Under the pieces are notes generated by a model. It was not told the origin of the DNA. It saw only the letters and a list, made by a program, of their open reading frames with translations, and did no database searches. The position numbers were made by a program, and so were the translations under genes. From the NCBI GenBank assembly GCA_949361645.1, contig OX442416.1, forward strand, positions 2,658,146 through 2,722,145: 64,000 nt of DNA, in the 5' to 3' direction. Below, piece by piece: positions 850 through 42,222 of this stretch (position 1 is its first letter; each line of letters starts with the position of its first letter). Source of the stretch: Spongilla lacustris. Its lineage: Eukaryota > Porifera > Demospongiae > Spongillida > Spongillidae.

Positions 850-851
<2 letters not shown>

Positions 852-2020: not shown

Positions 2021-2084
<64 letters not shown>

Positions 2085-2959: not shown

Positions 2960-2998
<39 letters not shown>

Positions 2999-8154: not shown

Positions 8155-8696
8155 TATATACCGGTATATATATGGAACGTTCTATGAGATTTTGATGCTT
8201 GTGAATTATATATATATAGCATCCAATTCAAAGCGCTATATCTTCAAAAGGGTTTGCACTATTGACTTCCTATTTTCAGCACTTCATACTACACCATTTC
8301 TCTATGCCAAAATATATTTTGGGGTCTTGCACTTACTCCGTGCCAGGATTGCAACGTCCGATACCACACCGGGTTCAAACCCGACATAACTTTAGGTAGG
8401 AGTAATCAAATCGCTTCAAATTCGGTTTGTAGGTAGAGAGGTCCTATACCTATCGATCTGTTCTGTTCGTTAATTTTCATACAAACCGTTACGGAGAAAC
8501 AGCTGTGCAAAGTAAGTACACGTTTCCCGCTCGAATCGCGCCTTTATATGTACACGGAACAGTTTCCATTCTCCGGAGCGTATGAATATTCAACTATTCC
8601 TATAGGGCGTGATAACCACACCTATAAGGTCACCAAACAAACGGGCGGCTGAATTTTAGTGCTTGTTACGGTTGTTTTTCGGTGTAGATAAACGAT

Positions 8697-8945
8697 ATGG
8701 TGACGTATAACACGAGTGAAGGCGAGCTCGTCGAGTCACTGAATCAGTCGGCGGATGAGTTCGAACTGTACGAATACGACGATCGATATTCAAGCTCGAT
8801 ACATTGGACGAGGATGGAGAGATTGAGAAAAGTAGCGATGGCGGTCGTACCACTGACGTTGGTGGTTGTATTAGTGATAGGGAGTGAGCAGCCCCTGAAT
8901 TACCAAAAGAGCCACCAGCCCCACCCCCACATAGCCAGGGGCTAA
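8697..8945 (+). CDS. Subterminal small ORF of element A, left arm (predicted single-pass membrane protein)
   Basis: 82 codons from ATG. Residues 1-40 are acidic and tyrosine-rich (SADEFELYEYDDRYS). A basic patch (RMERLRK) is followed by a hydrophobic stretch at about 46-62 (VAMAVVPLTLVVVLVIG) that could be a signal anchor. The tail is proline/histidine-rich and may be read-through into repeat sequence. The right arm encodes an identical protein at 15893-16141, with at least one synonymous difference. Frameshifted homologues occur at the same place in B and C. I recognise no family. It could be an element gene or a captured first exon. Confidence 0.5.
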   Translation: MVTYNTSEGELVESLNQSADEFELYEYDDRYSSSIHWTRMERLRKVAMAVVPLTLVVVLVIGSEQPLNYQKSHQPHPHIARG

Positions 8946-9199
8946 TGGGGCTAGGCCCTTCACTACAAGTTCGCTCAGCAGCCCTGGGGCCAAAGAGGCC
9001 ATCCCCACACAGCAGAACCACAAGCCCCCTCACTGCAAGTGCACACTATATACCTTTGGAATCATTATGCCTCATGCTGCAATTTAAATTAATGGCCTCA
9101 CATTCCAAATAGTGGAGCCATCAAGTGGAATTAACAGGCCCCATAATTCCAGCAAGGGAGCCACCAGCTAACCTGGCCAATGGAGCTAACATCCACAAT

Positions 9200-12100
9200 G
9201 CCAGTGGAGACACCAGCCCTCTCGCAGATAGATCATCAGACACCCACACTGCCAGCAGGGATGTGGCCCCCACAATAATGCCAGTGGAGATGCCAGCCCT
9301 CAGGCTGCAAATGGAATCAGCATCCCCAACAATTTCAGGGGAGCAAGGAACTACATGTACCAACAACACGTGATGACCTCACTACCAGATCAATCATTAA
9401 CCCTCACTCCGCAAGTGGTCTTAACAGGCTCCACACACTGGGACCAAACCCCCACCCCTCCCCCCCCCACTACCTTTCTTTCAATGCAAGTTGAGTCAGC
9501 TGGGATCCCCACACAGTAGAACCGCCAGCCCCCTCACCCCAAGCTCATGAACAATACCAGTGGAACCTGTAAAGTCTACACTGCAACTGAACTTAATAAA
9601 TAAAGCCTCACACTGCAGCCAGCAGCCCATGGAACCATTCTTACAGAACACCCTCAGCTACCCAGGGCCAATGGGGTAGCCTCCACAAAGTCAGTGAAGA
9701 TGCCACCCCAAGTTGAGTCAGCAGCCCCCACACAAACAAGGGCCAATAGGGCCAGCCCCACACAGTACAACCACCAGCCCCTCTCTGCTCACTTCAAATA
9801 GAGCCACTAGACCCTCTACCAGTACACACTGCAAGTCCAGACGGCAGGCCACATGAGTGGAGCCCTCTCACCGATGGAGCCCAGCAAGGAAGTACCAGCT
9901 GCCACACAACCAGTGGTTAATCGAGCCCCCAGAATAATGCCAGTGGAGAAACCAGCCCTCGCACTGCAAGTGGATTCAGCAACCCCAAAAATTTCAGGGG
10001 TACATGTAAATGTACTTGAGGGGGAAAAGAAAACCACACAAGCCCTCTTCAAACACTACAACAGAACAAGTGGAACTTTAAGCCCTCATAGTTAATACGT
10101 AGCAGTCCCCACAGCCCCCCCCACCCCCCCACCCCCCGCCCACCCCCGCTACTACCTGTCCTACATGTACAATGAAAGAGGGGCCAATCAGCCAATGGGA
10201 CAGTACAACCACCAACCCTCTTCATTAGTCAGGGAACATGTACCAAGAACACATGCCGTCACTACAAGTTGAACCTCAATGCAAGTGGACTTAACAGGCC
10301 CACCACACACTGGTGCCAGCCCTCGCCCCTCCTCCCCCCCCCCTCAGCCCCCCTCTGCTCACTACGTGTCCTTCACTGCAAGTTGCGTCAGCTGTCCTTG
10401 AGCCAATGGGGCCCATAGAACTACCACTCCGCCTCACTGCAATCACACACTACCTTTGGAACCAACCATTAACCCCCATACTGCAAGTGAACTCAATACT
10501 GCAAAACCTGACCCCCACACTGCCAGCAAGGGAGCACCAGCTGTCACACAACCAGAGTGTCAATGTGGCCCCCACTTAATGCCAGTGGAGAAGGCAGCCC
10601 TCACACTGGAAATGGAGTCAGTAGCCCCAACAATTTCAGGGGACATGTGCATGTACGCACATGTACCAATGGAATAACACATGTCCCACCAATGGAACCA
10701 TGCAGTGGAACTTTTAGCCCTCACAATAAGTGGACTTATTACTTAGCAGCCCCCACAACCTGTCTTTCACTGAAAGAGGGGGCTAATGGGACCATCACCA
10801 CACAGTACAACTACCAGCCTTCCTCATTGCAAGCCAATGGAACCTCTGCTCAAACATTGGAGCTACCAGTCTTCTCACAAATAGAGCTATCATACCCCCA
10901 CACTGCTAGCAGAAATGTGGCCCGCACAATAATGCCAATGGAGATGCCAGCCCTCAGGCTGCAAATGGAATCAGCATCCCCAACAATTTCAGGGGAGCAA
11001 TGAACTACATGTACCAACAACACGTGATGACCTCACTACCAGATCAATCATTAACCCTCACTCCGCAAGTGGTCTTAACAGGCTCCACACACTGGGACCA
11101 AACCCCCCCCCCTCCCCCCCCACTACCTTTCTTTCAATGCAAGTTGAGTCAGCTGGGATCCCCACACAGTAGAACCGCCAGCCCCCTCACCCCAAGCTCA
11201 TGAACAATACCAGTGGAACCTGTAAAGTCTACACTGCAACTGAACTTAATAAATAAAGCCTCACACTGCAGCCAGCAGCCCATGGAACCATTCTTACAGA
11301 ACACCCTCAGCTACCCAGGGCCAATGGGGTAGCCTCCACAAAGTCAGTGAAGATGCCACCCCAAGTTGAGTCAGCAGCCCCCACACAAACAAGGGCCAAT
11401 AGGGCCAGCCCCACACAGTACAACCACCAGCCCCTCTCTGCTCACTTCAAATAGAGCCACTAGACCCTCTACCAGTACACACTGCAAGTCCAGACGGCAG
11501 GCCACATGAGTGGAGCCCTCTCACCGATGGAGCCCAGCAAGGAAGTACCAGCTGCCACACAACCAGTGGTTAATCGAGCCCCCAGAATAATGCCAGTGGA
11601 GAAACCAGCCCTCACACTGCAAGTGGATTCAGCAACCCCAAAAATTTCAGGGGTACATGTAAATGTACTTGAGGGGGAAAAGAAAACCACACATGCCCTC
11701 TTCAAACACTACAACAGAACAAGTGGAACTTTAAGCCCTCATAGTTAATACTTAGCAGTCCCACAGCCCCCCCCCCCCCCCCCCCCCCCCCTGCTACTAC
11801 CTGTCCTACATGTACAATGAAAGAGGGGCCAATCAGCCAATGGGACAGTACAACCACCAACCCTCTTCATTAGTCAGGGAACATGTACCAAGAACACATG
11901 CTGTCACTACAAGTTGAACCTCAATGCAAGTGGACTTAACAGGCCCACCAAACACTGGTGCCAGCCCTCGCCCCTCCTCCCGCCCCCCCCCCCCCCTTAG
12001 CCCCCCTCTGCTCACTATGTGTCCTTCACTGCAAGTTGCGTCAGCTGTCCATGAGCCAATGGGGGCCATAGAACTACCACTCCGCCTCACTGCAATCACA

Positions 12101-12530
12101 CACTACCTTTGGAACCAACCATTAACCCCCATACTGCAAGTGAACTCAATACTGCAAAACCTGACCCCCACACTGCCAGCAAGGGAGCACCAGCTGTCAC
12201 ACAACCAGAGTGTCAATGTGGCCCCCACTTAATGCCAGTGGAGAAGGCAGCCCTCACACTGTAAATTGAGTCAGTAGCCCCATGCAGCAATTTCAGGCGA
12301 CATGTGCACGTATACACATGTACCAATGGAATCACACATGCCCCCTTCAAACACTACCAATGGAACCAGTGGAACGTTTAGCCCTCACAGCAAGTGGACT
12401 TATTCCTTAGCAGCCTCCACAGCGCCCACCCTCACCCCCCCACTACCTGTCCTTCACTGAAAGAGGGGGCTAATGGGACCATCACCACACAGTACAACTA
12501 CCAGCCTTCCTCATTGCAAGTCAATGGAAC
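9200..12530. repeat. 1.66-kb tandem duplication within the left arm of A
   Basis: Copy 1 spans about 9200-10860 and copy 2 about 10860-12530, offset by about 1660-1690 bp. For example, GATGCCAGCCCTCAGGCTGC occurs at 9288 and again near 10945. Copies differ by small substitutions and C-run lengths. The right arm has only one full copy (about 13900-15560) plus a partial one, so the duplication arose after the inverted structure formed or was lost from the right arm. Confidence 0.8.
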
Positions 12531-12779
12531 CATTAACTCCCAAGCTGCAATTGAACTTAGTAACCTCACACTGCAAGTCCAGTCAAAAGCGCTGCACAAC
12601 CAGTGGAGCCACCAGCCCTTCCACATGTGGTGTTATCAAACCGTTCACTGCCAGCCGTCAATGGAGCCCCCATAATAATGCCCATACTCTACAAATGGTT
12701 CCCCTTCATGTGTGGATTACACTGGTAGTGAGGAGGCTGGTGACTTTGCTGACAGTGTGGGGTCTGCTAACTTCACTTG

Positions 12780-13140
12780 GGAAGGTGTGATGCATAATAT
12801 TGTTGCCTTTATGGACTGTGCCTACGTGTGCAATTTACATGCAGTTGTATATTCCACATGTTACTTTTATGACATTTAAAATGGTACTTATTGCTCCATG
12901 TACATAAAGCACTAGTTTCCAGCAAGAGGGTACATGTACATTTTAGATGTACAACTCAAACCTTGTATGCCTTGCTTGCCTATATAAACCAACTACCACC
13001 CTAAATTAGTACTGATAGGGCAGGTAATGATATTCACCCACCAATAACAAGGCTTCACTTCACCTCAGATAAAATTGTGTGCACAGAAAACAGGTATACA
13101 GTGGCTCCAATAGGGACTGGTAATTTACACATAGTGTGGG
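12780..13140. other. Centre (hub) of foldback A
   Basis: This is the unpaired spacer between arms. It holds one copy of the core sequence (near 12975-13090: CTGATAGGGCAGGTAATGAT and ATTCACCCACCAATAACA) that occurs as two inverted copies in elements B and C. It is otherwise AT-rich with TACATGTA words and no reading frame of note. Confidence 0.6.
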
Positions 13141-15892
13141 GGCTAGTAGCTCCACTGGTAGATGATGGCTTGCCTAAAACTGTCGGGGTGCCAAGTCCAT
13201 ATGCAGTTTGGGGGGGGGGGGGGGGGGGGGCTCTGGACCGTTGATTGTAAAGGACAGGAGCTGGCCCCAGTGCTAATATAAGTCCAATTGCAGTGAGGGC
13301 TAATGGTTCCACTGGTTCCATGTGTTGTGTTAGGAGCAGGGAATGTGTGGGTCCATTGGTACATGTAGTTCAGAGGGCTGGCATTATTGTGGGGTGACGC
13401 CTGGTTATGTGGCAGCTGATGGCTGACTGGACTTGCAGTGTGCCTAGTGGCTCCATTTGAAGTCAGCAGAGAGGGGCTGGTGGTTGTACTGTGCGGAGCT
13501 GGCCCTACAGGCTCCTGTTTGTGTGGAGGCTGCTGACTCAACTTGGGCACTGGCTTTGTGGAGGCTACCCCATCGGCTCTGGAATGGTTCCATAAGTTGT
13601 GCATGGGCATGGACATGTGAGGCTATTAAGTTCAGTTGTAGGGAACACTTTACAGGTTCCACTGGTATTGTTCACGAGCTTGAGGTGAGGGAGCTGGTGG
13701 TGGCCCCTCAAATGCTGACTCAACTTATATGCAGCAATAGAAAGGTAGCGGGGGCGTGGGCTGGCCTCAGTGCGTGGTACCTGCTAGGTCCACTTGTGGA
13801 GTGAGGATTAATGGCTCATCTGGTAGTGAGGGCATGTGTTATCGATACATGTAGTTAGTGGCTCCCCTAAAATTGGTGGGGATGCCGACTCCATTTGCTG
13901 TGTGATGGCTGGCATCTCCACTGGCATTATTGTGGGGGCCACATTTCTGCTAGCAGTGTGGGGGTATGATAACTCTATTTGTGAGAAGGCTGGTAGCTCC
14001 GATGTTTGAGCAGAGGTTCCATTGGCTTGCAATGAGGAAGGCTGGTAGTTGTACTGTGTGGGGATGGTCCCATTAACCCCCTCTTTCAGTAAAGGACAGG
14101 TAGTGGGGGGGGGGGGGGGGGGGGGGGTGGGCGCTGTGGAGGCTGCTAAGGAATAAGTCCACTTGCTGTGAGGGCTAAACGTTCCACTGGTAGTGTTTGA
14201 AGGAGGCATGTGTGATTCCATTGGTACATGCACATGTCCACTGAAATTGTTGCATGGGGCTACTGACTCAATTTACAGTGTGAGGGCTGCCTTCTCCACT
14301 GGCATTAAGTGGGGGCCACATTGACACTCTGGTTGTATGACAGCTGGTGCTCCCTTGCTGGCAGTGTGGGGGTCAGGTTTTGCAGTATTGAGTTCACTTG
14401 CAGTATGGGGGTTAATGGTTGGTTCCAAAGGTAGTGTGTGATTACAGTGAGGCGGAGTGGTAGTTCTATGGCCCCCATGGCTCATGGACAGCTGACGCAA
14501 CTTGCAGTGAAGGACACGTAGTGAGCAGAGGGGGAGGAGGGGCGAGGGCTGGCACCAGTGTGTGGTGGGTCTGTTAAGTCCACTTGCATTGAGGTTCAAC
14601 TGGTAGTGACGGCATGTGTTCATGGTATATGTCCCCTGACCAATGAAGAGGGTTGGTGGTTGTACTGTCCCATTGGCTGATTGGCCCCTCTTTCATTGTT
14701 AGTAGGGGGGAGGGCTGTGGGGACTGCTACATATTAACTATGAGGGCTTAAAGTTCCACTTGTTCTGTTGTAGTGTTTGAAGAGGGCATGTGTAGTTTTC
14801 TTTTCCCCCTCAAGTACATTTACATGTACCCCTGAAATTTTTGGGGTTGCTGAATCCACTTGCAGTGCGAGGGCTGGTTTCTCCACTGGCATTATTCTGG
14901 GGGCTCGATTAACCACTGGTTGTGTGGCAGCTGGTACTTCCTTGCTGGACTCCATCGGTGAGAGGACTCAACTGGTGTGGCTTGCTGTCTGGACTTGCAG
15001 TGTGTGTACTGTTAGAGGGTGTAGTGGCTCTATTTGAAGTGAGCAGAGAGGGGCTGGTGATTGTACTGTGTGGGGCTGGCCCTATTGGCCCTTGTTTGTG
15101 TGGGGGCTGCTGACTCAACTTGGGGTGGCATCTTCACTGACTTTGTGGAGGCTACCCCATTGGCCCTGGGTAGCTGAGGGTGTTCTGTAAGAATGGTTCC
15201 ATGGGCTGTTGGCTGCAGTGTGAGGCTTTATTTATGAAGTTCAGTTGCAGTGTAGACTTTACAGGTTCCACTGGTATTGTTCATGAGCTTGCGGTGAGGG
15301 GGCTGGTGGTTCTACTGTGTGGGGGATCCCAGTTGACTCAACTTGTATTGAAAGAAATATAGTGAAGATAGTGGGGGGGGGGGGGGGGGGTTGGTCCCAA
15401 TGTGTGGAGCCTGTTAAGACCACTTGCGGAGTGAGGGTTAATGATTGATCTGGTAGTGAGGTCATCACGTGTTGTTGGTACATGTAGTTCATTGCTCCCC
15501 TGAAATTGTTGGGGATGCTGATTCCATTTGCAGCCTGAGGGCTGGCATCTCCACTGGCATTATTGTGGGGGCCACATCCCTGCTGGCAGTGTGGGTGTCT
15601 GATGATCTATCTGCGAGAGGGCTGGTGTCTCCACTGGCATTGTGGATGTTAGCTCCATTGGCCAGGTTAGCTGGTGGCTCCCTTGCTGGAATTATGGGGC
15701 CTGTTAATTCCACTTGATGGCTCCACTATTTGGAATGTGAGGCCATTAATTTAAATTGCAGCATGAGGCATAATGATTCCAAAGGTATATAGTGTGCACT
15801 TGCAGTGAGGGGGCTTGTGGTTCTGCTGTGTGGGGATGGCCTCTTTGGCCCCAGGGCTGCTGAGCGAACTTGTAGTGAAGGGCCTAGCCCCA

Positions 15893-16141
15893 TTAGCCCC
15901 TGGCTATGTGGGGGTGGGGCTGGTGGCTCTTTTGGTAATTCAGGGGCTGCTCACTCCCTATCACTAATACAACCACCAACGTCAGTGGTACGACCGCCAT
16001 CGCTACTTTTCTCAATCTCTCCATCCTCGTCCAATGTATCGAGCTTGAATATCGATCGTCGTATTCGTACAGTTCGAACTCATCCGCCGACTGATTCAGT
16101 GACTCGACGAGCTCGCCTTCACTTGTGTTATACGTCACCAT
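15893..16141 (-). CDS. Subterminal small ORF of element A, right arm
   Basis: Inverted copy of the 8697-8945 frame, encoding the same 82 residues. At least one synonymous change is visible (ACG versus ACA for a threonine near residue 6). Identity of the two proteins implies recent duplication, gene conversion between arms, or selection. The hydrophobic segment and acidic N-terminal part are as in the left copy. Confidence 0.5.
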   Translation of the reverse strand: MVTYNTSEGELVESLNQSADEFELYEYDDRYSSSIHWTRMERLRKVAMAVVPLTLVVVLVIGSEQPLNYQKSHQPHPHIARG

Positions 16142-17224
16142 ATCGTTTATCTACACCGAAAAACAACCGTAACAAGCACTACAATTCAGCCGCCCGTTTG
16201 TTTGGTGACCTTATAGGTGTGGTTATCACGCCCTATAGGAATAGTTGAATATTCATGCGCTCCGGAGAATGGAAACTGTTCCGTGTACATATAAAGGCGC
16301 GATTCGAGCGGGAAACGTGTACTTACTTTGCACAGCTGTTTCTCCGTAACGGTTTGTATGAAAATTAACGAACAGAACAGATCGATAGGTATAGGACCTC
16401 TCTACCTACAAACCGAATTTGAAGCGATTTGATTACTCCTACCTAAAGTTATGTCGGGTTTGAACCCGGTGTGGTATCGGAAGTTGCAATCCTGGCACGG
16501 AGTAAGTGCAAGACCCCAAAATATATTTTGGCATAGAGAAATGGTGTAGTATGAAGTGCTGAAAATAGGAAGTCAATAGTGCAAACCCTTTTGAAGATAT
16601 AGCGCTTTGAATTGGATGCTATATATATAAAATTCACAAGCATCAAAATCTCATAGAACGTTCCATAATTATATGGGACAGTTCACGACAAAATGAGCCT
16701 TCGTATATATATATAAAATGTTATAAAATTCCCTTATGTTTGAATCGCTATAACTTCTGAACGGTAAAAGCTATCGACTTCCTATTTTCAACACTTCATA
16801 CTACACCGTTTCTCTATTTTAAAATCCATTTTGGAGTCTTGCACTTGCTCCGTGCCAGTATTGCAATGTTCGATACCCCACCGGGTTCACACCCGCCATA
16901 ACTTTAGGTAGGAGTAATGAAATCGCTTCAAATTCGGTTTGTAGGTAGAGAGGTCCTATACCTATCGATTTGTTCTGTTCGTTAATTTTTATGTCATCCG
17001 TTACGGAGATACAGCGGCGCAAAGTTGGTACACGTTTCCCGCTCGAATCGCGCCGTTGGACGTGCGAGGCCCGCTTCCATTCATCAAAGCACATGAAATG
17101 CAACTACTTCCTGTGGGCCGAGACTTTGATAACTTATAGCCACACCCATACTGCGCTAGCTAGATCTGATGGGTAAGTATTTAATGTATCGTCCCTGTCA
17201 CAGTTGTTATTCGTTATCTCCTAT

Positions 17225-17420
17225 GTAGATAACGGATATGGCGACGTCCACTGAAGACAACACACTCGCAAGAGTTTCAATCGGCGGACGAGTTTGAGCG
17301 ATACGGATACGACGATCGATATTCAAGATACATTCGACGAGGTGGGGAGATTGAGAACGGTAGTGACGGCGGTTATACTACTGACGATGGTGGTTGTAGG
17401 GAGTAAGCAGCCCCTAAATG
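17225..17420 (+). pseudogene. Decayed copy of the subterminal small ORF, element B left arm
   Basis: It aligns with 8697-8880 of element A. The SADEFE-Y-YDDRYS segment is still readable, but indels shift the frame before the hydrophobic part (VVTAVILLTMVVVG, read in another frame). The inverted counterpart is at about 29820-30020 on the minus strand. Confidence 0.6.
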
Positions 17421-17741
17421 ACTAAGAGCCAGCAGCCCTAGTCTCGTACCCAGACCCTGATTCCCACAGCTGCGGATGGACACCAGCCCCACCCCCACAT
17501 ATTCCTCGCTACATTGCAAGTCCAGACAGCAGCCCCGCATAACCAACAGCAGACGCCACCAACCCGCACTACCTATGGAACCACCTGCCCATATCAGACC
17601 CTTATACACACGAGCCACAAACTAACCAATGGGGTCAGCCTCCACAATAGTATACCAGTGGAGACACTGCTATCCCTCTTGCTGCAAATGGAGTTGGCAG
17701 CCCCCACAATTTCAATCAAGGGAAGCCACACATCCCAATGA

Positions 17742-18620
17742 ATGGACTTACAGCAGAACCTAGCTGACTGTGTCCGGCAGTGTGGCCAGGATGTCACTTG
17801 TGTGTCACAGCTGTACCAGGACTGGAATGCCTTCTTGGGCCAGTGGTTTGGTCCTCTGGTTGGCCTAGGACACTACCGCACATTTGAGTTTGATCAAGAC
17901 CACCCTGGTGTCGTGAGGATGGAGACCTTGCCATGGGACACAAACCCCACCGAGGTAACCATGCTGAGGGCTGGAGTGGCCATAAAGGACATTAGGCTTA
18001 TCAGAGCCAAGTGATGCCACCTGTTATTACCCCCAAGTGGATTGTCCCTGACACGGTCACTGTACCTGTACGAGAAGGTGAGGGAATACGTTCGTGACCC
18101 CAAGAAAAGGGACAAGGTGTGTCCAAAGCCTTCACAAAGCTCAGAGGCCAACTCTTCCTATACATGCGGTAATGCTTCATCCCATGCAGTAGCAAAAAAT
18201 GACAAACCAAGACCTTCCTCACTTACCTACTGTTGAGGGTCATAAGTATGCAGATGACACTCACAGTGAATTGCAAGGTGAAGGCAATAGCTGTGTTTCT
18301 GGCAGGAGGAAATGCAGACCCAGGTCTGAACTAATCCTTGCCTACCAATGCACTGTACATGTATGTGGCAAGAAGTATGCCAGTAGCCAGGCCCCCTGTC
18401 CCTGCACAAAAAGAACACTCACAAGCAGCCTGCTGTTCCAGGTGACGAACACGGATTCCAGTGTCGACAAAGGAAGCCAGGGTCCACCCAAGCGCAGGCC
18501 GCGAGGCGTACGCTAAAATCTGAAATTGACAGGCCATTTTCCTGTTCGGTGTGTGGCATGACGTACAGCACCCCAGCCGCACTGTATACTTACAACAAGA
18601 CCAACAATGGTTCATGACAA
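17742..18620 (+). pseudogene. Captured gene fragment with zinc-finger-like segments, element B left arm
   Basis: A 90-codon frame (17742-18014) is followed, in shifted frames, by lysine/arginine-rich and cysteine-rich segments. These end in finger-like sequences: QCTVHVCGKKY near 18350 and FSCSVCGMTYSTPAALYTY near 18540. The second resembles a C2H2 finger whose histidines have become tyrosine or been lost. Codon-like composition and lack of repeat words set it apart from its GC-rich surroundings. I do not recognise the parent gene. Capture of host or transposon sequence by the foldback is the simplest reading. An inverted copy lies in the right arm. Confidence 0.55.
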
Positions 18621-18659
18621 ATGAACCATATTGTGAGATGCATGCTTTTTATATAGTTT

Positions 18660-20375: not shown

Positions 20376-20455
20376 TTTTACTTTTCACGTAGTGGTGATG
20401 TAATCCATCCGATGCTGTGAAAATCTAAGTCTGGGTACAAGACTAGTAACGACAG

Positions 20456-24338: not shown

Positions 24339-24469
24339 CCCTCCCTTCCTCTTTCTGTTATGTGTGCTTTTGGAAAGCATTCTTTCATCACTAAAATATA
24401 GCTATGTAATATTCCAGTTACAGTCCATAATTGCCATTGAGTTTTTAGTTCCAGATCTATGATGTTGCT

Positions 24470-26430: not shown

Positions 26431-26514
26431 CTGTCATTACTAGTCTCGTACCCAGACTTAGATTTTCACAGCATCAGATGGATTACATCACCACTACGTG
26501 AAAAGTAAAAAACC

Positions 26515-28590: not shown

Positions 28591-28609
28591 CTATATAAAA
28601 AGCATGCAT

Positions 28610-29505: not shown

Positions 29506-32500
29506 TCATTGGGATGTGTGGCTTCCCTTGATTGAAATTGTGGGGGCTGCCAACTCCATTTGCAGCAAGAGGGATAGCAGTGTCTCCACTGGTATACTAT
29601 TGTGGAGGCTGACCCCATTGGTTAGTTTGTGGCTCGTGTGTATAAGGGTCTGATATGGGCAGGTGGTTCCATAGGTAGTGCGGGTTGGTGGCGTCTGCTG
29701 TTGGTTATGCGGGGCTGCTGTCTGGACTTGCAATGTAGCGAGGAATATGTGGGGGTGGGGCTGGTGTCCATCCGCAGCTGTGGGAATCAGGGTCTGGGTA
29801 CGAGACTAGGGCTGCTGGCTCTTAGTCATTTAGGGGCTGCTTACTCCCTACAACCACCATCGTCAGTAGTATAACCGCCGTCACTACCGTTCTCAATCTC
29901 CCCACCTCGTCGAATGTATCTTGAATATCGATCGTCGTATCCGTATCGCTCAAACTCGTCCGCCGATTGAAACTCTTGCGAGTGTGTTGTCTTCAGTGGA
30001 CGTCGCCATATCCGTTATCTACATAGGAGATAACGAATAACAACTGTGACAGGGACGATACATTAAATACTTACCCATCAGATCTAGCTAGCGCAGTATG
30101 GGTGTGGCTATAAGTTATCAAAGTCTCGGCCCACAGGAAGTAGTTGCATTTCATGTGCTTTGATGAATGGAAGCGGGCCTCGCACGTCCAACGGCGCGAT
30201 TCGAGCGGGAAACGTGTACCAACTTTGCGCCGCTGTATCTCCGTAACGGATGACATAAAAATTAACGAACAGAACAAATCGATAGGTATAGGACCTCTCT
30301 ACCTACAAACCGAATTTGAAGCGATTTCATTACTCCTACCTAAAGTTATGGCGGGTGTGAACCCGGTGGGGTATCGAACATTGCAATACTGGCACGGAGC
30401 AAGTGCAAGACTCCAAAATGGATTTTAAAATAGAGAAACGGTGTAGTATGAAGTGTTGAAAATAGGAAGTCGATAGCTTTTACCGTTCAGAAGTTATAGC
30501 GATTCAAACATAAGGGAATTTTATAACATTTTATATATATATACGAAGGCTCATTTTGTCGTGAACTGTCCCATATATATATATATATGGGACAGTTTCC
30601 GAGAAAATGATACTTCGCATATATAAATATAAAGTTATAAAAATGCCTCGCGTTTGAATCGCTATAACTCCCGAACGATAAACGATATTAACTTCCTATT
30701 TTCAACACTTCATACTACACCATTGCTCTATAGTAAAATACATTTTGGGGCCTTGCACTTGCTCCGTGCCAGTATTGCAACGTTCGATACCCCACCGGGT
30801 TCTAACCCACCATAACTTTAGGTAGGAGTAATCAATTCGCTTCAAATTCGGTTTGTAGGTAGAGAGGTCATATACCTATCGATTTGTTCTGTTCGTTAAT
30901 TTTTATGTCATCCGTTACGGAGATACAGCGGCGCAAAGTTGGTACACGTTTCCCGCTCGAATTGCGCCGTTGTACGTGCGTGAACCGCTTCCATACCAAA
31001 TTACATGAATATGCAACTACTTCCTGTGGGCTGAGACTTGGATAACTTATAGCCACACCTATGTATACTGCGCTAGCTAGCTAGCTGGGTAAGTATTTAA
31101 TCTATCGCCCCTGTCACAGTTGATATTCGTTATTATCTGTGTAGATAAACGATATGCATAGCGACGTCCACTGAAGACAAGCTCGTAAGAGGTTCAATCG
31201 GCGGACGAGTTCGAGCCGGTACGGTTACGACGAGATATTCAAGATACTTTCGATGAGGATGGGGAGATCGAGAACGGTAGTGACGGCGGTCATACCACTG
31301 ACGATGGTGGTTGTAGGAAGTAAACAGCCGCTAAATCACCACCGGCCCCGCCCCCCACATATGGGCCATTGCAAGTCCAGACAGCAGCCCTGCAAAACCA
31401 ACAGATGCAATGCAGAGCCACCAACCCGCACTACCTATGGAACCACCCGCCCATATCAGACCCTACACAGGAGCTACCAACTAACCAATGGGGTCAGCCT
31501 CCACAGTACAAGTAGAGATACTTATACTAACCCTCTCCCTGCAAATGGAGTTGGCAGCCCTCACAATTTCAGGGCAGCCATGAACTACATGTACATGTAC
31601 CAAGGGAAGTCACACATGCCCCCTCCCAACACTACCAGTGGAACTACATGTATTAGCCCTCACTGCAAATGGCCTTACATGTACATGTAAGCAGAACCCC
31701 ATTGGTCCAGCCCCCTCCCCTCCCCACCCCCACTATTGATTATTCTCTGCAAGTTCAAGGGACCATTGGCGCCATCCCCACACAGCAAAACCACCAGTCC
31801 CCATCACTACAGCCTTGCAAACTTTCAAAATAATACCTCCCCACCAGCTCTCTTACGGATGTGGTTACCAGACCCTGCACTGCCAGTAGGGGAGCCCTCA
31901 CATGCAGGGGTCAATAGATGCCAGTGGAGATGCCGCCCTCACTCTATAAGTAGTCCCCATAAAGTACTGTACATACACCCGCCCCTCTCCAAACAGTGAA
32001 ACCATAAGCCTACACTGCAAGTGCTCCACACACTGAGACCAGCCATCTGGACCAATGGGGTCAGCTCCCTCACTGCAAGTGGACAGTATCATTGGACCAT
32101 TAATGCTAGTGAACTTAATAGCCACACGATACAAGTGAACTAACATTTAATACCTCCCGCACACTGCAAGTACTGGAGCCACCATCTCTCTTACAGATGG
32201 GGTTACCAGACCCTGCACTGCCAGCAGGGGTGCCCACACAAGCTGGGGTCAATACAATGTACATGTAGGTATGATGCCAATGGAGATGCCAGCCATCACA
32301 CTACAAGCGATTAAGCAGTCCCCAAATTTCAGGGGAAGCCATGAACTACATATGCACTGAACGTACACCCGCCCTTTCACTGCAAGTGCCCCACAAACTG
32401 GGACCAGCCCCCCACGGCCCTCCTGCCCACTACTAGTCCTTCACTGCAAGTAGAGTCAACGGCTCAGGGACAAATGGGGTCAGCTCCCTCACTGCAAACA

Positions 32501-33433
32501 GACGGTAACATTGTAACTATTAATGCAAGTGAACTTAAAAGCCCACACTGCATTCCAGTTAGCACCATTGGAGCCATATTCCAGATGGAGTTATCAGACT
32601 GCCAGCAGGAAAGCCACCAGCTGCTAAACTCCCCGGAGTCATTGGGGGGTCCCACAATAATGCATACTGGTGGATGGAGTCACACTGCAAGTGGAAATGG
32701 CACCCCGCACAATTTTAGGGAGCCACGAACTGGAGCCACACATGCCCCCACTATCTATGGAACCATTTCACCCTCACTTAGCAGCCCCCACACACTACAA
32801 GTACAGTCCATACCAGTGACCATTCACTGCAAGTTCAAGGGGCCAATGGTCACACATCAAAACCACCATCCCCCATTGATCACTGCAAGTGAACTCAACA
32901 GCCGCACGATGCAAGTGAATTTCCATTAAATGTAAATGCCTCCACACTCCACACTGCAAGTAGTGGAGCCACCAGCTCTGTTACAGATGGGGTTACCAGA
33001 CCCTGCATTCGATCAATGCCAGCAGGGGTGCCCACACAAGCTGGGGTCAGTAGGTATATGATGCCAGTGGAGATGCCAACCCTCACACTACAACCCATGA
33101 ACTACATGTACTGTACGTACACCTGCCCATCTCAAAACACTACCAATGGAACCATTAGGCCTCCTGCCCTGCACTACCTGCATGTCCTTCACTGCACGTT
33201 GAGTCAACATACGGCCCAGGGACCAATGGCGTCAGCTCCCTCACTGCAAGCGGACAGTATCATTGGAATCATTAATGCAAGTGAACTTAATGGCCCCACA
33301 CTGCAGGTCCGGTTAGCACCAGCGGTTCTTGGTCTGTCAGCAAAGGAGCCACCAGCTGCTAAACACCCCAGGGTCATTGGGGCCCCCAGAATAATCATGC
33401 TGGTGGAAACTCACAACAGTGGAATTGGAATTG

Positions 33434-33438
33434 GTAAC
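33434..33438. repeat. 5-bp target duplication GTAAC (left copy)
   Basis: GTAAC precedes the TG of the LTR at 33439 and recurs directly after the terminal CA at 36487-36491. The uninterrupted site in the other arm of element C (near 39345) reads GGTAAC followed by CCCCACAATATTAG, with a single GTAAC. Confidence 0.9.
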
Positions 33439-33572
33439 TGTAGTATATGGAACTATTATATGTATGCTGCGCATGCGTGATTAGGAGTATTTAATAGTGT
33501 GATATCGAGTGATTATTAGTTGATATACTCATTTTGTCAGACTCAACGATAGGCCTACGGGGGTATATCACA
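33439..33572 (+). repeat. 5' LTR of the Ty3/Gypsy element
   Basis: 134 bp, beginning TGTAGTATATGG and ending GGGGGTATATCACA. Its last 17 bp recur as the only remnant of the 3' LTR at 36470-36486. Confidence 0.85.
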
Positions 33573-33589
33573 TTGGCGACGAGGGTGGG

Positions 33590-34960
33590 ATGGCTGCGGT
33601 ATCCGTAGGCCAAATATCGGAGTTTCAGTCGGAACTGGAGTCTATCACGGTGTATTTGGAAAGACTTTCGCAGTTTTTCATTGCTAACGAGATACCAACA
33701 GCTAGACGAGCGGCAGTGCTTCTCAGCGTGATTGGCAGTCGGACGTATACCTTGCTCAGGAGTTTGCTGCATCCGGAAGTACCTGGAGATAAGACGTATG
33801 AACAGCTGGTGACTGCCCTTACTGAACACTTCGAACCGAAGCGTCTGGTCGTAGTCGAACGTTTCCATTTCAACCGGCGTAACCAAGGTAATGGAGAGTC
33901 AGTTTTGGAGTATGTAGCAGAGCTTAAACGATTAGCGGGTACGTGTGCGTTTGGAGCATTTTTGGCAGAGGCGTTGAGAGACCGTTTCGTATGCGGACTG
34001 GCAAACGAAGTTATACAAAGGAGGCTACTGTCAGAAGCGAACCTGGACTTTGAGAAGGCAGTGCAAATAGCTCGAGGCATGGAAGCAGCTCAGAAGAGCA
34101 GTCAAGAGGTTAAAGTCTCAGAAGTACCGGTACAGAAGATTCAGGAGTACGGTAATAGTCCGGCACAACGGGGGCGGGTGTGTTGGCATTGTGGGAAAAA
34201 GGGGCATCAATCTGAGCATTGTCGTTTTAAAAATGCAGTATGTTATAGGTGCCACAAGAAGGGCCACATTGAAGCCAACTGTAAGGCAAGACAGGAAAAA
34301 GAAGAGCTAAAATGGGTGGATAAACAAGGTGAAGATGATATCAAAGGTCACGGGTATCATGTAATTGATACATTGTGTGAGGGAACAATGGGCTCATTGT
34401 TTAAGTCACAGGGCACCTCGGAAACGAGTGCATACATGGTGAAGATGGAAGTCAATGGAGAAAGTTTGATGATGGAAATAGACACGGGGGCCGCAGTGAC
34501 TATCATTTCCGAAGAGGTCTATAGGGAAAAGTTTCCAAAACTACTGCTGACAGAGTCTGCACTGAAGCTTGCCACATATACAACTCAGAGAATACAGGTA
34601 TGCGGAGAAGTTCGGGTAAGGGTCAGGCTGGGAAAGCAAGAAAGGCATTGTAGATTAGTTGTGGTAGCTGGAAAAGGTCCTAGTTTGCTGGGCAGAGATT
34701 GGCTGAAGATGTTTAGAATACAATGGCATCAAATAAATGCACTTGTAACTCCTCCCATAATAAACAGCAAGGGGATTAGAGAGAATAAAGGAGTAGCAGA
34801 TAAGGTGGAAGCTTTGGTAAATGGTTTTCCAGAAGTGTTTAATGACAACCTAGGTGAGATACATCCATTTAAAGCAAGGCTAGTGCTGAAAGAGGGAGCT
34901 CAGCCCATTTTTTGTAGACCTATAGGTCAGTATACCCTTTGCAATAAAAGAACAGATTGA
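33590..34960 (+). CDS. Gag-protease part of the Ty3/Gypsy polyprotein, frame broken at its end
   Basis: 456 codons from the ATG 17 bp after the LTR. Residues 1-170 are a retrotransposon gag-like helical region. Two CCHC zinc knuckles follow (CWHCGKKGHQSEHC near 197, CYRCHKKGHIEANC near 218), typical of nucleocapsid. An aspartic protease follows, with EIDTGAAVTI near 300 and LLGRDWL near 362. The frame then enters the linker before reverse transcriptase. It is lost by a small indel near 34917-34940; the downstream pol sequence continues in the +1 frame. No envelope gene is present. Confidence 0.9.
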   Translation: MAAVSVGQISEFQSELESITVYLERLSQFFIANEIPTARRAAVLLSVIGSRTYTLLRSLLHPEVPGDKTYEQLVTALTEHFEPKRLVVVERFHFNRRNQGNGESVLEYVAELKRLAGTCAFGAFLAEALRDRFVCGLANEVIQRRLLSEANLDFEKAVQIARGMEAAQKSSQEVKVSEVPVQKIQEYGNSPAQRGRVCWHCGKKGHQSEHCRFKNAVCYRCHKKGHIEANCKARQEKEELKWVDKQGEDDIKGHGYHVIDTLCEGTMGSLFKSQGTSETSAYMVKMEVNGESLMMEIDTGAAVTIISEEVYREKFPKLLLTESALKLATYTTQRIQVCGEVRVRVRLGKQERHCRLVVVAGKGPSLLGRDWLKMFRIQWHQINALVTPPIINSKGIRENKGVADKVEALVNGFPEVFNDNLGEIHPFKARLVLKEGAQPIFCRPIGQYTLCNKRTD

Positions 34961-36560
34961 AAGGGAGCTTGAGCGGCTTGAGAAAACAGGAGTTATCTGT
35001 CCAGTCAATCACAGTGAATGGGCAACACCCATTGTACCAATTCCAAAGCCAGACCGAAGTATAAGAATATGTGGGGATTATAAAGTAACGGTGAATGCTG
35101 CCCTGCATGTAGACCAGTACCCCCTACCGATTCCTGAGGAATTATTTGCTACGCTGTCTGGGGGGAAACAGTTCACAAAACTTGACCTGTCTAACGCGTA
35201 TCAACAACTTCCTCTGGATAAAGAATCAAGAAAAATGTGTACTATTAATACACACAAGGGTCTGTATCAATACTCCCGATTACCGTTCGGAATTGCATCG
35301 GCTCCCGCAATTTTCCAGAAACTCATGGACTCCGTGTTACAAGGCGTACCAAGAACGGTTTGCTACATTGATGATATTTTGGTAACAGGAGGTAGTGAAG
35401 AAGAACACCTGAGAAATCTGGAGCTAGTTTTGGAGCGTCTGAAGACTCATGGCATTACTGTGAGAAAGAGCAAGTGTGTATTCATGGCCAACTCTGTTGA
35501 ATTCTTGGGGCATAGGATTGACGCAGAAGGTTTGCACCCGCTTGAAAGCAAAATAGAAGCTATGGTGAAAGTTCCACAACCGAGGAATGTGGCAGAATTA
35601 AAGTCGTTTTTAGGAATGGTGAATTATTATTCCAAATTTCTGCCTAACCTGTCGACAACTATTTCCCCGTTATACGCATTGCTGAAGAAGAACAGCAGAT
35701 GGCAGTGGTCGAAAGAATGTAGTCAAGCCTTTTTAGCAGCTAAAGGCATGTTGACATCTTCCAAGGTTCTAGTACATTATAATCCCAAGTTGTCTTTGAG
35801 ACTGGCTACAGATGCATCAAGTTATGGTGTAGGGGCAGTGTTAACGCAAGTGAGTGAAGAAGGAACGGAAAGGCCAATAGCGTTCGCGTCGCGGACATTG
35901 TCGGATGCAGAACAAAATTATGCACAGATAGAAAAAGAGGCCCTAGCTATCATCTTTGGGGTAAAAAGATTTCACGTGTATTTGTATGGACGAAAATTTC
36001 TTTTGTTAACGGATCACAAACCATTAACAACCATTTTTGGTCCAAAGACCGGATTACCTGTGGTGGCAGCGTCCAGGTTACAAAGATGGGCATTAATACT
36101 TTCAGCGTATCAGTATGACGTGAAGTTTAGGCCAACGGAAGAACACGGAAACGCAGATGGGTTGTCCAGACTGCCGTTGAAAGGTGAAGAAAACGAAGAA
36201 GAGGAAACAGAAGCTAGCATGTTCAACATGGTACAAATAGAAACGCTCCCGGTAACTACGGGACAGTTACAAAATGAAAGCCGACATGACAAGGATCTGA
36301 GCAAGGTAATGATGTACCTTCAAAAAGGATGGCCAGAAAGGGTCGCAGCAGAGTTACAACCATATGAAGACAAGAAGACCGAACTAACCATGGAAAATCA
36401 CACCTTGCTGTGGGGAATGCGAGTTGTGATACCTCGAAAGTTACAAGAGAAGGTCTTATCGGAATTATATACGGGGGTATATCACAGTAACCCCCACAAT
36501 ATTAGGGGAACCATGAACTGGAGCCCCCCGCTATCCATGGAACCATTAGCCCTCACTTAG
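34941..36560 (+). pseudogene. Reverse transcriptase and RNase H part of pol, truncated before integrase
   Basis: Open frame continuous from about 34941. RT motifs include FTKLDLSNAYQQLPLD, LPFGIASAPAIFQ and the catalytic YIDDILV near 35370. The RNase H part has LATDASSYGVGAVL near 35810 and LLTDHKPL near 36005; DGLSRLP near 36155 closes the connection region. The protein ends by running through the LTR remnant at 36470-36486 into element C sequence (stop 36560). The H2C2 zinc finger and integrase core are absent. It is separated from gag by the frameshift near 34930, so it is non-functional as it stands. Confidence 0.9.
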
Positions 36561-37929
36561 CAGGAGTACCTCCCACTACATGTACCTATCCTTCACTGCA
36601 TGTTTCATCAGTCAAGATTACCAGCCATATCACTACAAGTGCACCATACCCGTGAACATTTACCGCAGGTTCAAGGGGCCAATGGGACCACTGGAGCCAT
36701 TCTCACACATTAGAACCACCATCCCCCATAACTGCAAGTGAACTTAACAGCCGCACAAGACAAGTGAACTTACATTTAATGCCTACACACTGCTAATAGT
36801 AGAGCCACCAGCTCTCTCACAGATGGGGTTACCAGACCTGCACTGCCCACATAAGCTGGGGTCAATATGTATATGCCAGTGGAGATGCCAGCCATCGCAC
36901 TACAAGTAGTCCCCAAATTTCAGGGAAAGCCATGAACTACATGCACTGAACATACACCCGCCCCTCTCCAAACACTACCATTTGAACCATTAGTCCTCAC
37001 TGCAACTACCCTACACACTGGGACCCGCCCCCACAGCCCTCCTGCCCCTTCACTGCATGTTGAGTTATTGGCCCAGGGGTCAGCTCCCTCACTACAAGCG
37101 GACAGACGCATTATTGCAAGTGAACTTAATAGCCCCATACAACAAGTCCAGTTAGCACCTGTCCAACGAGGGAGCCACCAGCTGCTAAAACCCTCTGCAG
37201 GGTCGTTGGGGGCCCCCCACAATAATGCATGCTGGTGGAGACTCCAGCTCTCACACGGCAATAGGAATTCGGCACCCCACACAATATTAGGGGAGCCATC
37301 AACTGGAGTCACACATGCCCATGGAACCATTAGCTCTCACTTAGCAGTCCCCACATACGGGGCTAGCCCCCACGGCCCTATCTCTCACTACCTATCCTTT
37401 ACTGCAAGTTGTATCCGAGATCTAGGAGTGAACGTGCAATGCCACCCCTCACTCACTAGCCCTCTCACTGCAAACACACAATACCAGTGGAACCAGACTC
37501 ACCCAGCACCCACCCCCAACAGCCCTCTTACGTATGGAGTAATCAGACTGCCAGCAGGGGAGCCACCAGCTGCCATATTACCAGTCCTCACAAAACTAGA
37601 CCCCATCATGAGGAGTGGAACCACACATGCAATGGAGCCATTAGCTCTCACTGCATGGGGACTTACATGGTGTAGGCCCCAAACACTGGGGCCAGCCACA
37701 ATGGCCCCCTATCCACTTAACCCCACACAGTACAACCACCAGCTCCTCACTGCAAATGAAACCACCAGACCCACTACCTGTGAAACCATTAACTCCCTAC
37801 CTGTGAAACTGGTCATTAACCCCCACACTACAAGAGAACTTACACTGTCAGGAGAACCATCAACTACTAGTGGAGCTACCAGCCCGCATTGGACAAATGG
37901 GAACACCATGCACCACTGAAGCAGCCTCC

Positions 37930-38640
37930 GTTTGTAGAGTGTACATGTGTACGTTTTGAACACATTTTGTGTTGTAGATCTGAACTAAATGTTTGTGCAT
38001 GTACAGAGTTATTTTATCTGGGGTGGAAGTGAAGCCCATGCTGTTAGTGGTGAATATAGTTACCAGCCCTATCGGTACTGATTGCGGGTGGTCTGCACCC
38101 GTGGTTGGTTTATATAGACAAGCAGAAGGCTTTTTGAAAAGAAAAAAGCCTACTGGGAACTGTGTAGTGTTGAGATACATGTACAAGTTGCAAAACTTGT
38201 AAGTGCCACTTAGAATGTCACATAAATTGCATGCGCAGTCACAGCTATAATTTGGCACGGTGAAGACATTGGAATTCATGACCACCAACTTCACTTGTGC
38301 GGTCATGAATTCTGATGTCTTCACCGTGACACACATCCAAAATGGCACTTACATGTTTTGCTAAGTGTACCTCAACAATGTAAAGCACTACATGTAGTTC
38401 CCAGCTGTAGGGGTTTTTTTTTATCTTCCAAAAAGCTCTCTGCTTGTGTATATAAACCAACCACGGGTGCAGACCACCCGCAATCAGTACCGATAGGGCT
38501 GGTAAATATATTCACCACTAACAGCATGGGCTTCACTTCCACCCCAGATAAAATAACTCTGTACATGCCTCTGTACATGCACAAACATTTAGTTCAGATC
38601 TACAACACAAAATGTGTTCAAAACGTATACATGTACACTC
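37930..38640. repeat. Core palindrome of element C
   Basis: Inverted copies meet near 38290, where the words GACATTGGAATTCATGACCA and GCGGTCATGAATTCTGATGT face each other. The flanking core (CCCTATCGGTACTGATTGCG) matches that of B. Confidence 0.85.
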
Positions 38641-41600
38641 TACAAACGGAGGCTGCTTCAGTGGTGCATGGTGTTCCCATTTGTCCAATGCGGGCTGGTA
38701 GCTCCACTAGTAGTTGATGGTTCTCCTGACAGTGTAAGTCCTCTTGTAGTGTGGGGGTTAATGACTGGTCAGTTTCACAGGTAGGGAGTTAAAGGTTTCA
38801 CAGGTAGTGGGTCTGGTGGTTCCATTTGCATTGAGGAGCTGGTGGTTGTACTGTGTGAGGTTAAGCGGATAGGGGGCCATTGTGGCTGGCCCCAGTGTTT
38901 GGGGCCTGCACCATGTAAGTTAGTCCTCATGCAGTGAGAGCTAATGGCTCCATTGCATGTGTGGTTCCACTCCTCATGATGGGGTCTAGTTTTGTGAGGA
39001 CCGGTAATGTGGCAGCTGGTGGCTCTACTAGTAGCAGTGTGTAGGCATTAAATGTAAGTTCACTTGTCTTGTGCGGCTGTTAAGTTCACTTGCAGTTATG
39101 GGGGATGGTGGTTCTAATGTGTGAGAATGGCTCCAGTGGTCCCATTGGCCCCTTGAACCTGCGGTAAATGTTCACGGGTATGGTGCACTTGTAGTGATAC
39201 GGCTGGTAATCTTGGCAGATGAAACATGCAGTGAAGGATAGGTACATGTAGTGGGAGGTACTCCTGCTAAGTGAGGGCTAATGGTTCCATGGATAGCGGG
39301 GGGCTCCAGTTCATGGTTCCCCTAATATTGTGGGGGTTACCAATTCCAATTCCACTGTTGTGAGTTTCCACCAGCATGATTATTCTGGGGGCCCCAATGA
39401 CCCTGGGGTGTTTAGCAGCTGGTGGCTCCTTAGCTGACAGACCAAGAACCGCTGGTGCTAACGGGACCTGTAATGTGCGGCTATTAAGTTCACTTGCATT
39501 AATGATTCCAATGATACTGTCCACTTGCAGTAAGGGAGCTGACGCCATTGGTCCCTGGGCCGTATGTTGACTCAACGTGCAGTGAAGGACATGCAGGTAG
39601 TGCAGGGCAGGAGGCCTAATGGTTCCATTGGTAGTGTTTTGAGATGGGCAGGTGTACGTACAGTACATGTAGTTCATGGGTTGTAGTGTGAGGGTTAGCA
39701 TCTCTACTGGCATCAAATACCTACTGACCCCAGCTTGTGTGGGCACCCCTGCTGGCATTGACCAAATGCAGGGTCTGGTAACCCCATCTGTAACAGAGCT
39801 GGTGGCTCCACTACTTGCATTGTGGAGGCATTTACATTTAATGGAAATTCACTTGCATCGTGCGGTTGTTTAGTTCACTTGCAGTGATCAATGGAGGATG
39901 GTGGTTTTGATGTGTGACCATTGGCCCCTTGAACTTGCAGTGAATGGTCATTGGTATGGTGCACTTGTATTGAGAAGGCTGAGAAGGCTGCTGAAACTTG
40001 CAGTGAATGATAATAGGTAGTGGGAGATAGGGTGTCATATGTGGGGGCTGCTAGTGAGGGTGAATGGTTCCATAGATAGTGGGGGCATGTGTGGCTCCAG
40101 TTCGTGGCTCCCTAAAATTGTGCGGGGTGCCATTTCCACTTGCAGTGTGACTCCATCCACCAGTATGCATTATTGTGGGACCCCCCAATGACCCCGGGGA
40201 GTTTAGCAGCTGGTGGCTTCCCTGCTGGCAGTCTGATAACTCCATCTGGAATATGGCTCCAATGGTGCTAACTGGAATGCAGTGTGGGCTTTTAAGTTCA
40301 CTTGCATTAATAGTTACAATGTTACTGTCTGCTTGCAGTGAGGGAGCTGACCCCATTTGTCCCTGGGCCGTTGACTCTACCTGCAGTGAAAGACAGGTAG
40401 TGGGCAGGAGGGCCGTGGGGGCTGGTCCCAGTGTGTAGGGCACTTGCAGTGAAAGGGCGGGTGTACGTTCAGTGCATATGTAGTTCATGGCTTCCCCTGA
40501 AATTTGGGGACTGCTTAATTGCTTGTAGTGTGATGGCTGGCATCTCCATTGGCAGTGCAGGGTCTGGTAACCCCATCTGTAAGAGAGATGGTGGCTCCAG
40601 TACTTGCAGTGTGCGGGAGGTATTACATGTTAGTTCACTTGTATCGTGTGGCTATTAAGTTCACTTGCATTAATGGTCCAATGATACTGTCCACTTGCAG
40701 TGAGGGAGCTGACTCCGTTGGTCCAGGTGGCTGGTCTCAGTGTGTGGAGCACGTGCATTGAGGGCTTATGGTTCCACTGTTTGGAGAGGGGAGGGTGTAC
40801 GTACAGTACTTTATGGGGACTACTTGTAGTGTGAGGGCGGCATCTCCACTGGCATCTATTGACCCCTGCTTGTGAGGGCTCCCATACTGGCAGTGCAAGG
40901 TCTGGTAACCCCATCCGTAAGAGAGCTGGTGGCTCCACTACTTGCAGTGTGGAGGTATTGTTTTGAAAGTTTGCAAGGCTGTAGTGATGGGGACTGGTGA
41001 TTTTGCTGTGTGGGGATGGCTCCATTGGCCCCTTAAGCTTGAACTTGCAGAGAATAATCAATAGTGGGGGTGGGGAGGGGAGGGGGCTGGACCAATGGGG
41101 TTCTGCTTACATGTACATGTAAGGCCATTTGCAGTGAGGGCTAATACATGTAGTTCCACTGGTAGTGTTGGGAGGGGGCATGTGTGACTTCCCTTGGTAC
41201 ATGTACATGTAGTTCATGGCTGCCCTGAAATTGTGAGGGCTGCCAACTCCATTTGCAGGGAGAGGGTTAGTATAAGTATCTCTACTTGTACTGTGGAGGC
41301 TGACCCCATTGGTTAGTTGGTAGCTCCTGTGTAGGGTCTGATATGGGCGGGTGGTTCCCTAGGTAATGCGGGTTGGTGGCTCTGCATTGCATCTGTTGGT
41401 TTTGCAGGGCTGCTGTCTGGACTTGCAATGGCCCATATGTGGGGGGCGGGGCCGGTGGTGATTTAGCGGCTGTTTACTTCCTACAACCACCATCGTCAGT
41501 GGTATGACCGCCGTCACTACCGTTCTCGATCTCCCCATCCTCATCGAAAGTATCTTGAATATCTCGTCGTAACCGTACCGGCTCGAACTCGTCCGCCGAT

Positions 41601-42222
41601 TGAACCTCTTACGAGCTTGTCTTCAGTGGACGTCGCTATGCATATCGTTTATCTATACACAGAAGATAACGAATATCAACTGTAACAGGGACGATAGATT
41701 AAATACTTACCCACTCCAGCTAGCTAGCTAGCGCAGTATATATAGGTGTGGCTATAAGTTATCCAAGTCTCAGCCCACAGGAAGTATTTGCATATTCATG
41801 AATTTGGTATGGAAGCAGTTCACGCACGTACAACGGCGCGATTCGAGCGGGAAACTTGTACCAACTTTGCGCCGCTGTATCTCCGCAACGGATGACATAA
41901 AAATTAACGAACAGAACAAATCGATAGGTATATGACCTCTCTACCTACAAACCGAATTTGAAGCGAATTGATTACTCCTACCTAAAGTTATGGTGGGTTT
42001 GAACCCGCTGGGGTATCGAACGTTGCAATACTGGCACGGAGCATATGCAAGGCCCCAAAATGTATTTTATTATAGAGCAATGGTGTAGTATGATGTGTTG
42101 AAAATAGAAAGTTAATATCATGTATTGTTCTGGAGTTATAGCGATTCAAACGCGAGGCATTTTTATAACTTTATATTTATATATGCGAAGTATCATTTTC
42201 TCGGAAACTGTCCCATATAATT

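Follow-up and report, generated by a model that had tools for sequence, protein, structure and literature searches.

The window analysed here, a stretch of 64,000 nucleotides from the genome of the sponge Spongilla lacustris (C2:2658146-2722145), contains three giant palindromic elements, designated A, B and C, which are placed end to end (Table 1). The limits of all three were set at TGG..CCA. Comparison of the window with itself revealed inverted arms in A (8165-11479/16673-13428, 90.4% identity) and in C (30584-32835/42219-39995, 92.8%), together with an inverted match (15968-20372/31315-26800, 88.5%) that crosses both the A/B and the B/C junctions. Within single elements, positions 1-3309 of A align with 8497-5258 (90.4%), 1-3699 of B with 13900-10127 (91.9%) and 1-2248 of C with 11628-9408 (92.8%). 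Inverted repeats make up most of the length of each element, and copies with defined ends occur at many loci, as expected of the fold-back class. Terminal blocks of about 750 bp, which contain TTCAAATTCGGTTTGTAGGT, can be aligned among the three elements, with an identity of about 75% between A and B and of 88% between B and C. The view of the sequence-only reading, that three giant fold-backs of one family lie end to end, was confirmed by this self-comparison and by the aligned terminal blocks.

That reading named terminal blocks confined to this place as something that would refute it. Across the genome (248.6 Mb in 51 contigs), the terminal 20-mer TTCAAATTCGGTTTGTAGGT occurs 1173+1175 times (2,348 in all; control 0+0), TATGGGACAGTTTC 854+841 times (control 1+0) and a motif of exon-1-like sequence, TCGGCGGAYGAGTTYGA, 233+247 times (480; control 0+0), so the blocks are not confined to the window. 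Taking the 480 exon-1 motifs as a basis, the giants would number a few hundred. Among the first 100 exact ends listed, 37 convergent neighbouring pairs less than 25 kb apart were found on C1, of which 23 span 548-857 bp and 14 span 8.3-23.3 kb; the longest of the latter may contain nested or gene-carrying elements. The exon-1 motif gave 31 convergent pairs, 4.8-29.8 kb apart, among 100 places listed. Members of the short class are fold-back miniature inverted-repeat transposable elements (MITEs), whose arms measure about 385 bp. The tip of one MITE forms a well-folding DNA hairpin (z -3.75), which was set aside because it was not seen to be kept in A, B and C. A GGTTCAAACC-like box in the terminal blocks resembles the B box motif of RNA polymerase III promoters.

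Thirteen other loci were fetched, and 16 elements (14 giants and two MITEs) were cut out of them. The copy of B at C22:2341543 is 99.8% identical across 13.9 kb in a single alignment, while copies of C (C1_8 and C6, each in two pieces; C16, in three) reach 98.6-99.9%, those at C1_8 and C6 being oriented opposite to C. Copies of A at C15, at C2:8.09 Mb and in the second C24 element are 98-99% identical along most of their length. Less close relatives of A (C4, first C24, C21, C2:18.8 Mb and C3:1.03 Mb) have rearranged inner parts and match piecewise, at about 95-98%, and those of B match (C12 and C1_15) at about 94-95% in parts. The 35- and 48-bp minisatellites and the core are common to B-like giants; the core of C is about 70% identical to this B-like core, and that of A gives short matches only. 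Inside B, ARAGORN calls a tRNA-His at 21791-21881, with which Rfam, giving no match at its gathering threshold, disagrees.

Long palindromes are a recognised cause of assembly artefacts in which one arm is a hairpin read-through of the other. This explanation of the arms is extremely improbable and, raised in the sequence-only reading, found no support: the outer aligned parts of the arms diverge by 7-10%, and identical differences between left and right recur at other loci with other flanks. Moreover, a Ty3/gypsy retrotransposon is present in only one arm of C. It matches gag, aspartic protease, reverse transcriptase (RT) and RNase H domains; the integrase and most of the 3' long terminal repeat are missing, as judged by eye. 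Two GTAAC copies flank the insert and a single GTAAC stands in the mirror arm, and the insert is absent from all three other copies of C fetched. Different inserts are nested in two relatives of A; in one of them a Penelope-like RT was recognised by eye.

A likely source of the family is a gene for a protein with the DUF7869 domain. An open piece in the arms of B (17742-18011 and 29236-29505) gave 326 candidate places in a genome search, of which 150 were scored; the last 31 of these, at 81-85% identity, lie in frames of 889-896 amino acids in 29 cases (27 of them of 894), a lower bound (at least 29), and of 342 and 500 amino acids in the other two. A captured host exon was rejected as the identity of this 90-amino-acid segment, given the long frames in many copies. 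Among copies of the segment, substitutions are spread over codon positions (e.g. 2,2,2 and 2,3,4) and are mostly non-synonymous, so that no coding constraint is visible. The frame at C1:9024830 (889 amino acids) lies 2.4 kb inward of the exact family end C1:9022450. In the gene-carrying copy in L010, a terminal inverted repeat (TIR) of the family is followed by 572 bp and then by ATG and 71 codons, identical by position to P0007 at 66, to P0003 at 57 and to P0005 at 33; the giants share their ends and 5' region with a relative that carries the gene. The starts of P0003 and P0005, MATTNDELVVYHSADEFEW and MAKSDDELVVYHSADEFEW, are recognisably similar to the exon-1 frames of the giants. By tblastn, residues 578-875 of P0003 are found in both arms of B and residues 12-41 in both arms of C (E 7e-4); the homology of A, and of the exon-1 frame of B, to the gene is based on DNA alignment with C. 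An earlier statement that there is no transposase inside these elements is not supported, given the decayed gene pieces in the arms of B and C and the gene-carrying relative with a family end. By calculation, two gene-carrying copies appear to stand back to back at C3:835243-840532, a pair repeated 46 kb away (881617-886906) with equal spacing.

The encoded protein, of about 890 amino acids, has an acidic N-terminus, a DUF7869 domain and C-terminal C2H2 fingers. A padded protein search returned 26 proteins, of which 22 contain PF25273 (DUF7869). Two of the proteins are assigned by name to Ephydatia muelleri, and eight have Em identifiers, presumed to denote the same species. The closest named proteins are from E. 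muelleri (58-86% identity), those of Amphimedon are more distant, and many closer ones are nameless; by these similarities the host would probably be a demosponge. Six proteins (P0002, P0003, P0005, P0008, P0013 and P0019) all match PF25273 with scores of 52-58 bits, where the cut-off is 26. The C1 copy (L068) reproduces residues 672-875 of P0005 identically (204 of 215 frame residues), and the remainder lies past a probable splice site. The DUF7869 domain is predicted to have an RNase H fold with three conserved aspartates. Sequence searches of the PDB found no relative of the protein core: a fragment gave three chance-level matches, and otherwise matches were to zinc fingers or at chance level. 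The 50 VIA rows listed were integrases, Mos1 and IstA only, and NCBIfam gave nothing above chance.

Flanking sequences point to TA as the target. They agree for exactly 2 bp in eight of 21 MITE rows and three of 19 rows of giants or their neighbours; elsewhere, longer agreement consists of (TA)n or of a few bases. Since the MITE rows were picked with a pattern containing TA, TA at their flanks is present by construction, and the exact 2-bp agreement (8/21) is the informative part. Three MITE rows (L037, L039 and L044) have closely related flanks, L029 and L048 partly so, and L040 lies within a 45-bp perfect palindrome, CCTA/TAGG. Around giants or their neighbours, the flanks are TA/TA in 16 of 19 rows, AT/AT in two and AT/TA in one (C24a3). 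A target-site duplication (TSD) of 2 bp, with (TA)n as the preferred target, is therefore likely. The elements also stack. A plus end of the exon-1 motif follows within 1.5 kb after 10 of 50 minus ends, with 0.07 expected at random (100 places listed), and an exact plus end within 60 bp after six of 49 minus ends, with 0.01 expected (100 ends listed).

The array is most simply explained by serial insertion into (TA)n, given that adjoining elements in the window represent different subfamilies, each of which has its own copies at other loci. Local segmental duplication occurs too: neighbouring copies at C3:835243/840269 and 881617/886643 are equally spaced, and motifs at C1:3557161/3578279 and 3605399/3626517 share an identical spacing of 21,118 bp, a probable segmental duplication. 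That the window array arose in this way, by tandem or segmental duplication or by recombination, is nevertheless very unlikely, as each of its subfamilies has near-identical copies elsewhere, several of which adjoin other neighbours or none.

The giants could also be real fold-backs moved by another transposase that uses TA or AT, for instance of the pogo/Tc1 or ISL2EU type. TA duplication is a hallmark of Tc1/mariner, intact pogo-type (DDE_1) frames of 552-567 amino acids are abundant, and the pogo elements read have very long TIRs, one of 389 bp and two others of no less than 484 and 540 bp, with 100% identity in each case. ISL2EU encodes a THAP/HTH/DDE transposase, usually with a YqaJ partner, and duplicates AT, according to PMC4482050; an intact ISL2EU-like frame of 600 amino acids exists in the genome. 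Genome-wide profile searches, with at most 150 candidates scored, listed eight matches for MULE, 139 for DDE_4, 79 for DDE_3 and 157 for DDE_1. Such mobilisation is nonetheless unlikely, as the terminal blocks are unmatched in one ISL2EU copy and three pogo families, whereas the DUF7869 gene has a physical connection to a family end and has left pieces inside B and C. When the matches listed for these four profiles in C1 0-11 Mb were compared by eye with the listed ends, a single pogo, that at C1:7923767, was seen inside a family element. This pogo was rejected as a source because it is bounded by 389-bp TIRs of its own and was inserted there, as was ISL2EU as a partner, since the TIRs of one copy are unrelated to those of the family. 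Transposase-like frames were not seen in frame lists of the 4.8-9 kb pairs L049, L050 and L051+L052 (nor in one Pfam scan of L049 and L050), of the unpaired ends L053-L055, where 4,507 letters of L055 read N, or of the inner parts of six long elements (L057-L062). The 21 MITE and 19 giant or neighbour flank rows display neither the 7-8 bp TSD of the P superfamily nor the approximately 8-11 bp TSD of Mutator, for which ATAATTAT around B+C is one ambiguous case. Pfam scans of 13 relatives showed DUF7869 instead of MULE, no THAP/HTH/DDE domains of the ISL2EU kind, and no DDE_1, DDE_3 or Transposase_1 (E up to 0.01, also up to 1).

The best explanation, to which a probability of roughly four in five is assigned, is that the three elements are giant fold-back transposons of the non-autonomous kind, linked to DUF7869, and lie end to end because they are members of one large, recently active family. 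In their origin, one or both ends of a gene-carrying element, with the start of its gene, would have become inverted duplications; in B, the C-terminal part of the gene would have been included too, with growth by minisatellite expansion, and the catalytic middle of the gene would have been lost along the way. The DUF7869 protein from intact copies would act in trans, excising the giants and inserting them at TA, mostly within (TA)n, with a probable 2-bp TSD. An element that enters (TA)n is then bordered by (TA)n to its left and right, so that later copies would come to lie beside earlier ones and end-to-end arrays would build up.

Several observations weigh against this explanation. A 2-bp TSD is unprovable within (TA)n, the C24a3 flanks are AT/TA, and ATAATTAT stands on either side of the B+C pair, readable as an 8-bp duplication or as chance in AT-rich DNA. 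No empty site turned up, and no search aimed at one was made. Foldseek gave no match to the protein at E<=0.001, its top rows being unrelated. Identity between the terminal blocks of the giants and that of the L010 copy with the gene reaches only 82-84%, gene-carrying elements are represented by one family end, and mobilisation in trans is something we infer.

Fold-back plans with repeats in the arms are also those of FB, FARE and sea-urchin TU elements, and mariner combines TA targets with a DDD triad. Mos1 mariner and retroviral integrases in the PDB have an RNase H-like catalytic fold; no sequence similarity of these to the DUF7869 protein was found in the PDB searches. FARE is named in PMC4486113. 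The earlier opinion that no comparable family had been described was not borne out: in Drosophila willistoni, the longest copy of Galileo (P superfamily) lacks any transposase segment and is 9,021 bp long, its two TIRs measuring 4,246 and 4,680 bp (PMC4168063, in part). Like the sponge giants, Galileo has subfamilies and TIRs lengthened by tandem repeats and recruited internal sequence, even a piece of an open reading frame, but the same excerpt describes three extended-TIR copies, one of them that long, a TSD of 7-8 bp and a P-superfamily transposase, whereas the giants would number a few hundred, with a probable 2-bp TSD and a DUF7869 protein. MuTAnT (Mutator) of Medicago truncatula likewise comprises short fold-backs in TA microsatellites with a gene-carrying relative, yet has a 9-bp TSD, a mudrA-like transposase and lengths of about 200 bp to more than 1.6 kb (PMC4486113, in part). 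Tetris/DAIBAM of Drosophila virilis shares tandem repeats in the TIRs, an end-sharing MITE and a presumed single autonomous source; it differs in that the source was not found, the TSD is 8-10 bp and three copies are structurally complete (PMC4079207, in part). Each of the three shows part of the plan, and none, as far as these partial texts go, shows hundreds of giants with an identified DUF7869-type source.

The literature listings searched showed no sponge fold-back family and gave 0 matches for DUF7869; the superfamily may have a name in Repbase or Dfam. It is an evenly balanced proposition that DUF7869 marks a eukaryotic transposon superfamily, so far undescribed, with a DDD triad and TA as its target, and that the sponge giants (8-15 kb and more) form a long-lived, diversifying lineage, recently amplified by hundreds, which makes its own targets, with insertions stacking into palindrome arrays. 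Multi-kilobase palindromes are commonly held to be unstable, and this genome carries hundreds of them. Copies with the gene, MITEs of 0.8 kb and giants of 8-15 kb all occur in one genome, and a function is suggested for an unnamed domain family. Tetris is an orphan fold-back whose transposase was guessed from its TSD, and the idea that fold-backs evolve through transposase loss and TIR lengthening is cited in the same paper (PMC4079207, in part). Here, where the probable source gene adjoins a family end and has left debris in the arms, this idea becomes traceable within one genome.

Table 1. Features of the palindrome array in the window (window positions)
Feature	Position	Strand	Basis
Giant palindromic element A, 8.5 kb, ends TGGAACGTTC...GAACGTTCCA	8173-16665	.	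self-comparison, dispersed copies
Left terminal block of A, with TIR, 5' region, exon-1-like sequence to donor-like GTGAGC	8173-8921	+	donor by eye
Right terminal block of A, 99.3% to the left block	15917-16665	-	
Spacer A/B, TAATTATA	16666-16673	.	
Giant palindromic element B, 13.9 kb, ends TGGGACAGTTCACG	16674-30573	.	self-comparison, dispersed copies
Left terminal block of B, with exon-1-like frame 17275-17403	16674-17438	+	
Decayed C-terminal part of DUF7869 protein (P0003 578-875), B left arm	17742-18614	+	tblastn
35-bp minisatellite array, B left arm	18676-20372	+	
48-bp minisatellite array, B left arm	20456-21275	+	
48-bp minisatellite array, B right arm	25886-26430	-	
35-bp minisatellite array, B right arm	26513-28571	-	
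Decayed P0003 578-875 segment, B right arm	28633-29505	-	tblastn
Right terminal block of B, 100% identical to the left block	29809-30573	-	
Spacer B/C, (TA)7	30574-30587	.	
Giant palindromic element C, 11.6 kb long, or 8.6 kb once the nested Ty3 is subtracted, ends TGGGACAGTTTCC	30588-42215	.	self-comparison, copies
Left terminal block of C, with N-terminal transposase remnant at 31195-31305	30588-31339	+	
Decayed P0003 residues 12-41, C arms	31195-31305 and 41602-41492		tblastn
Nested Ty3/gypsy retrotransposon without integrase, target duplication GTAAC, C left arm only	33441-36486	+	limits by eye
Palindromic core of C, self-inverse at 85.6%	37544-39041	.	self-comparison
Right terminal block of C, 96.2% to the left block, with N-terminal remnant at 41602-41492	41458-42215	-	

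Beyond the array, the sequence directly to the right of C (42216-42400) resembles, by eye, a piece of an Ulp1-type protease. It is followed at 42635-44389 by another fold-back, with arms of about 760 bp (88.7%), ends CAGTGGAAACC and TA flanks by eye, which resembles a non-autonomous element of the Tc1/pogo type. A 26-bp minisatellite at 5160-5416 has 9.9 copies that are 100% identical, and a 21-bp minisatellite of 43 copies (51159-52021) lies within open frames of 347 and 484 amino acids (+) and 289 amino acids (-). Elsewhere in the genome, open DDE_4 frames of about 608 amino acids are many, and one ISL2EU-like element (L056) has a DDE_4 frame of 600 amino acids and a second long frame that is YqaJ-like by eye. 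The 100% identical long TIRs of pogo-type elements (L063 294-3376 and L064-L067) point to recent activity. Finally, a chromodomain (E 7e-14) was found in a frame of 206 amino acids at 59888-60508 of the window.

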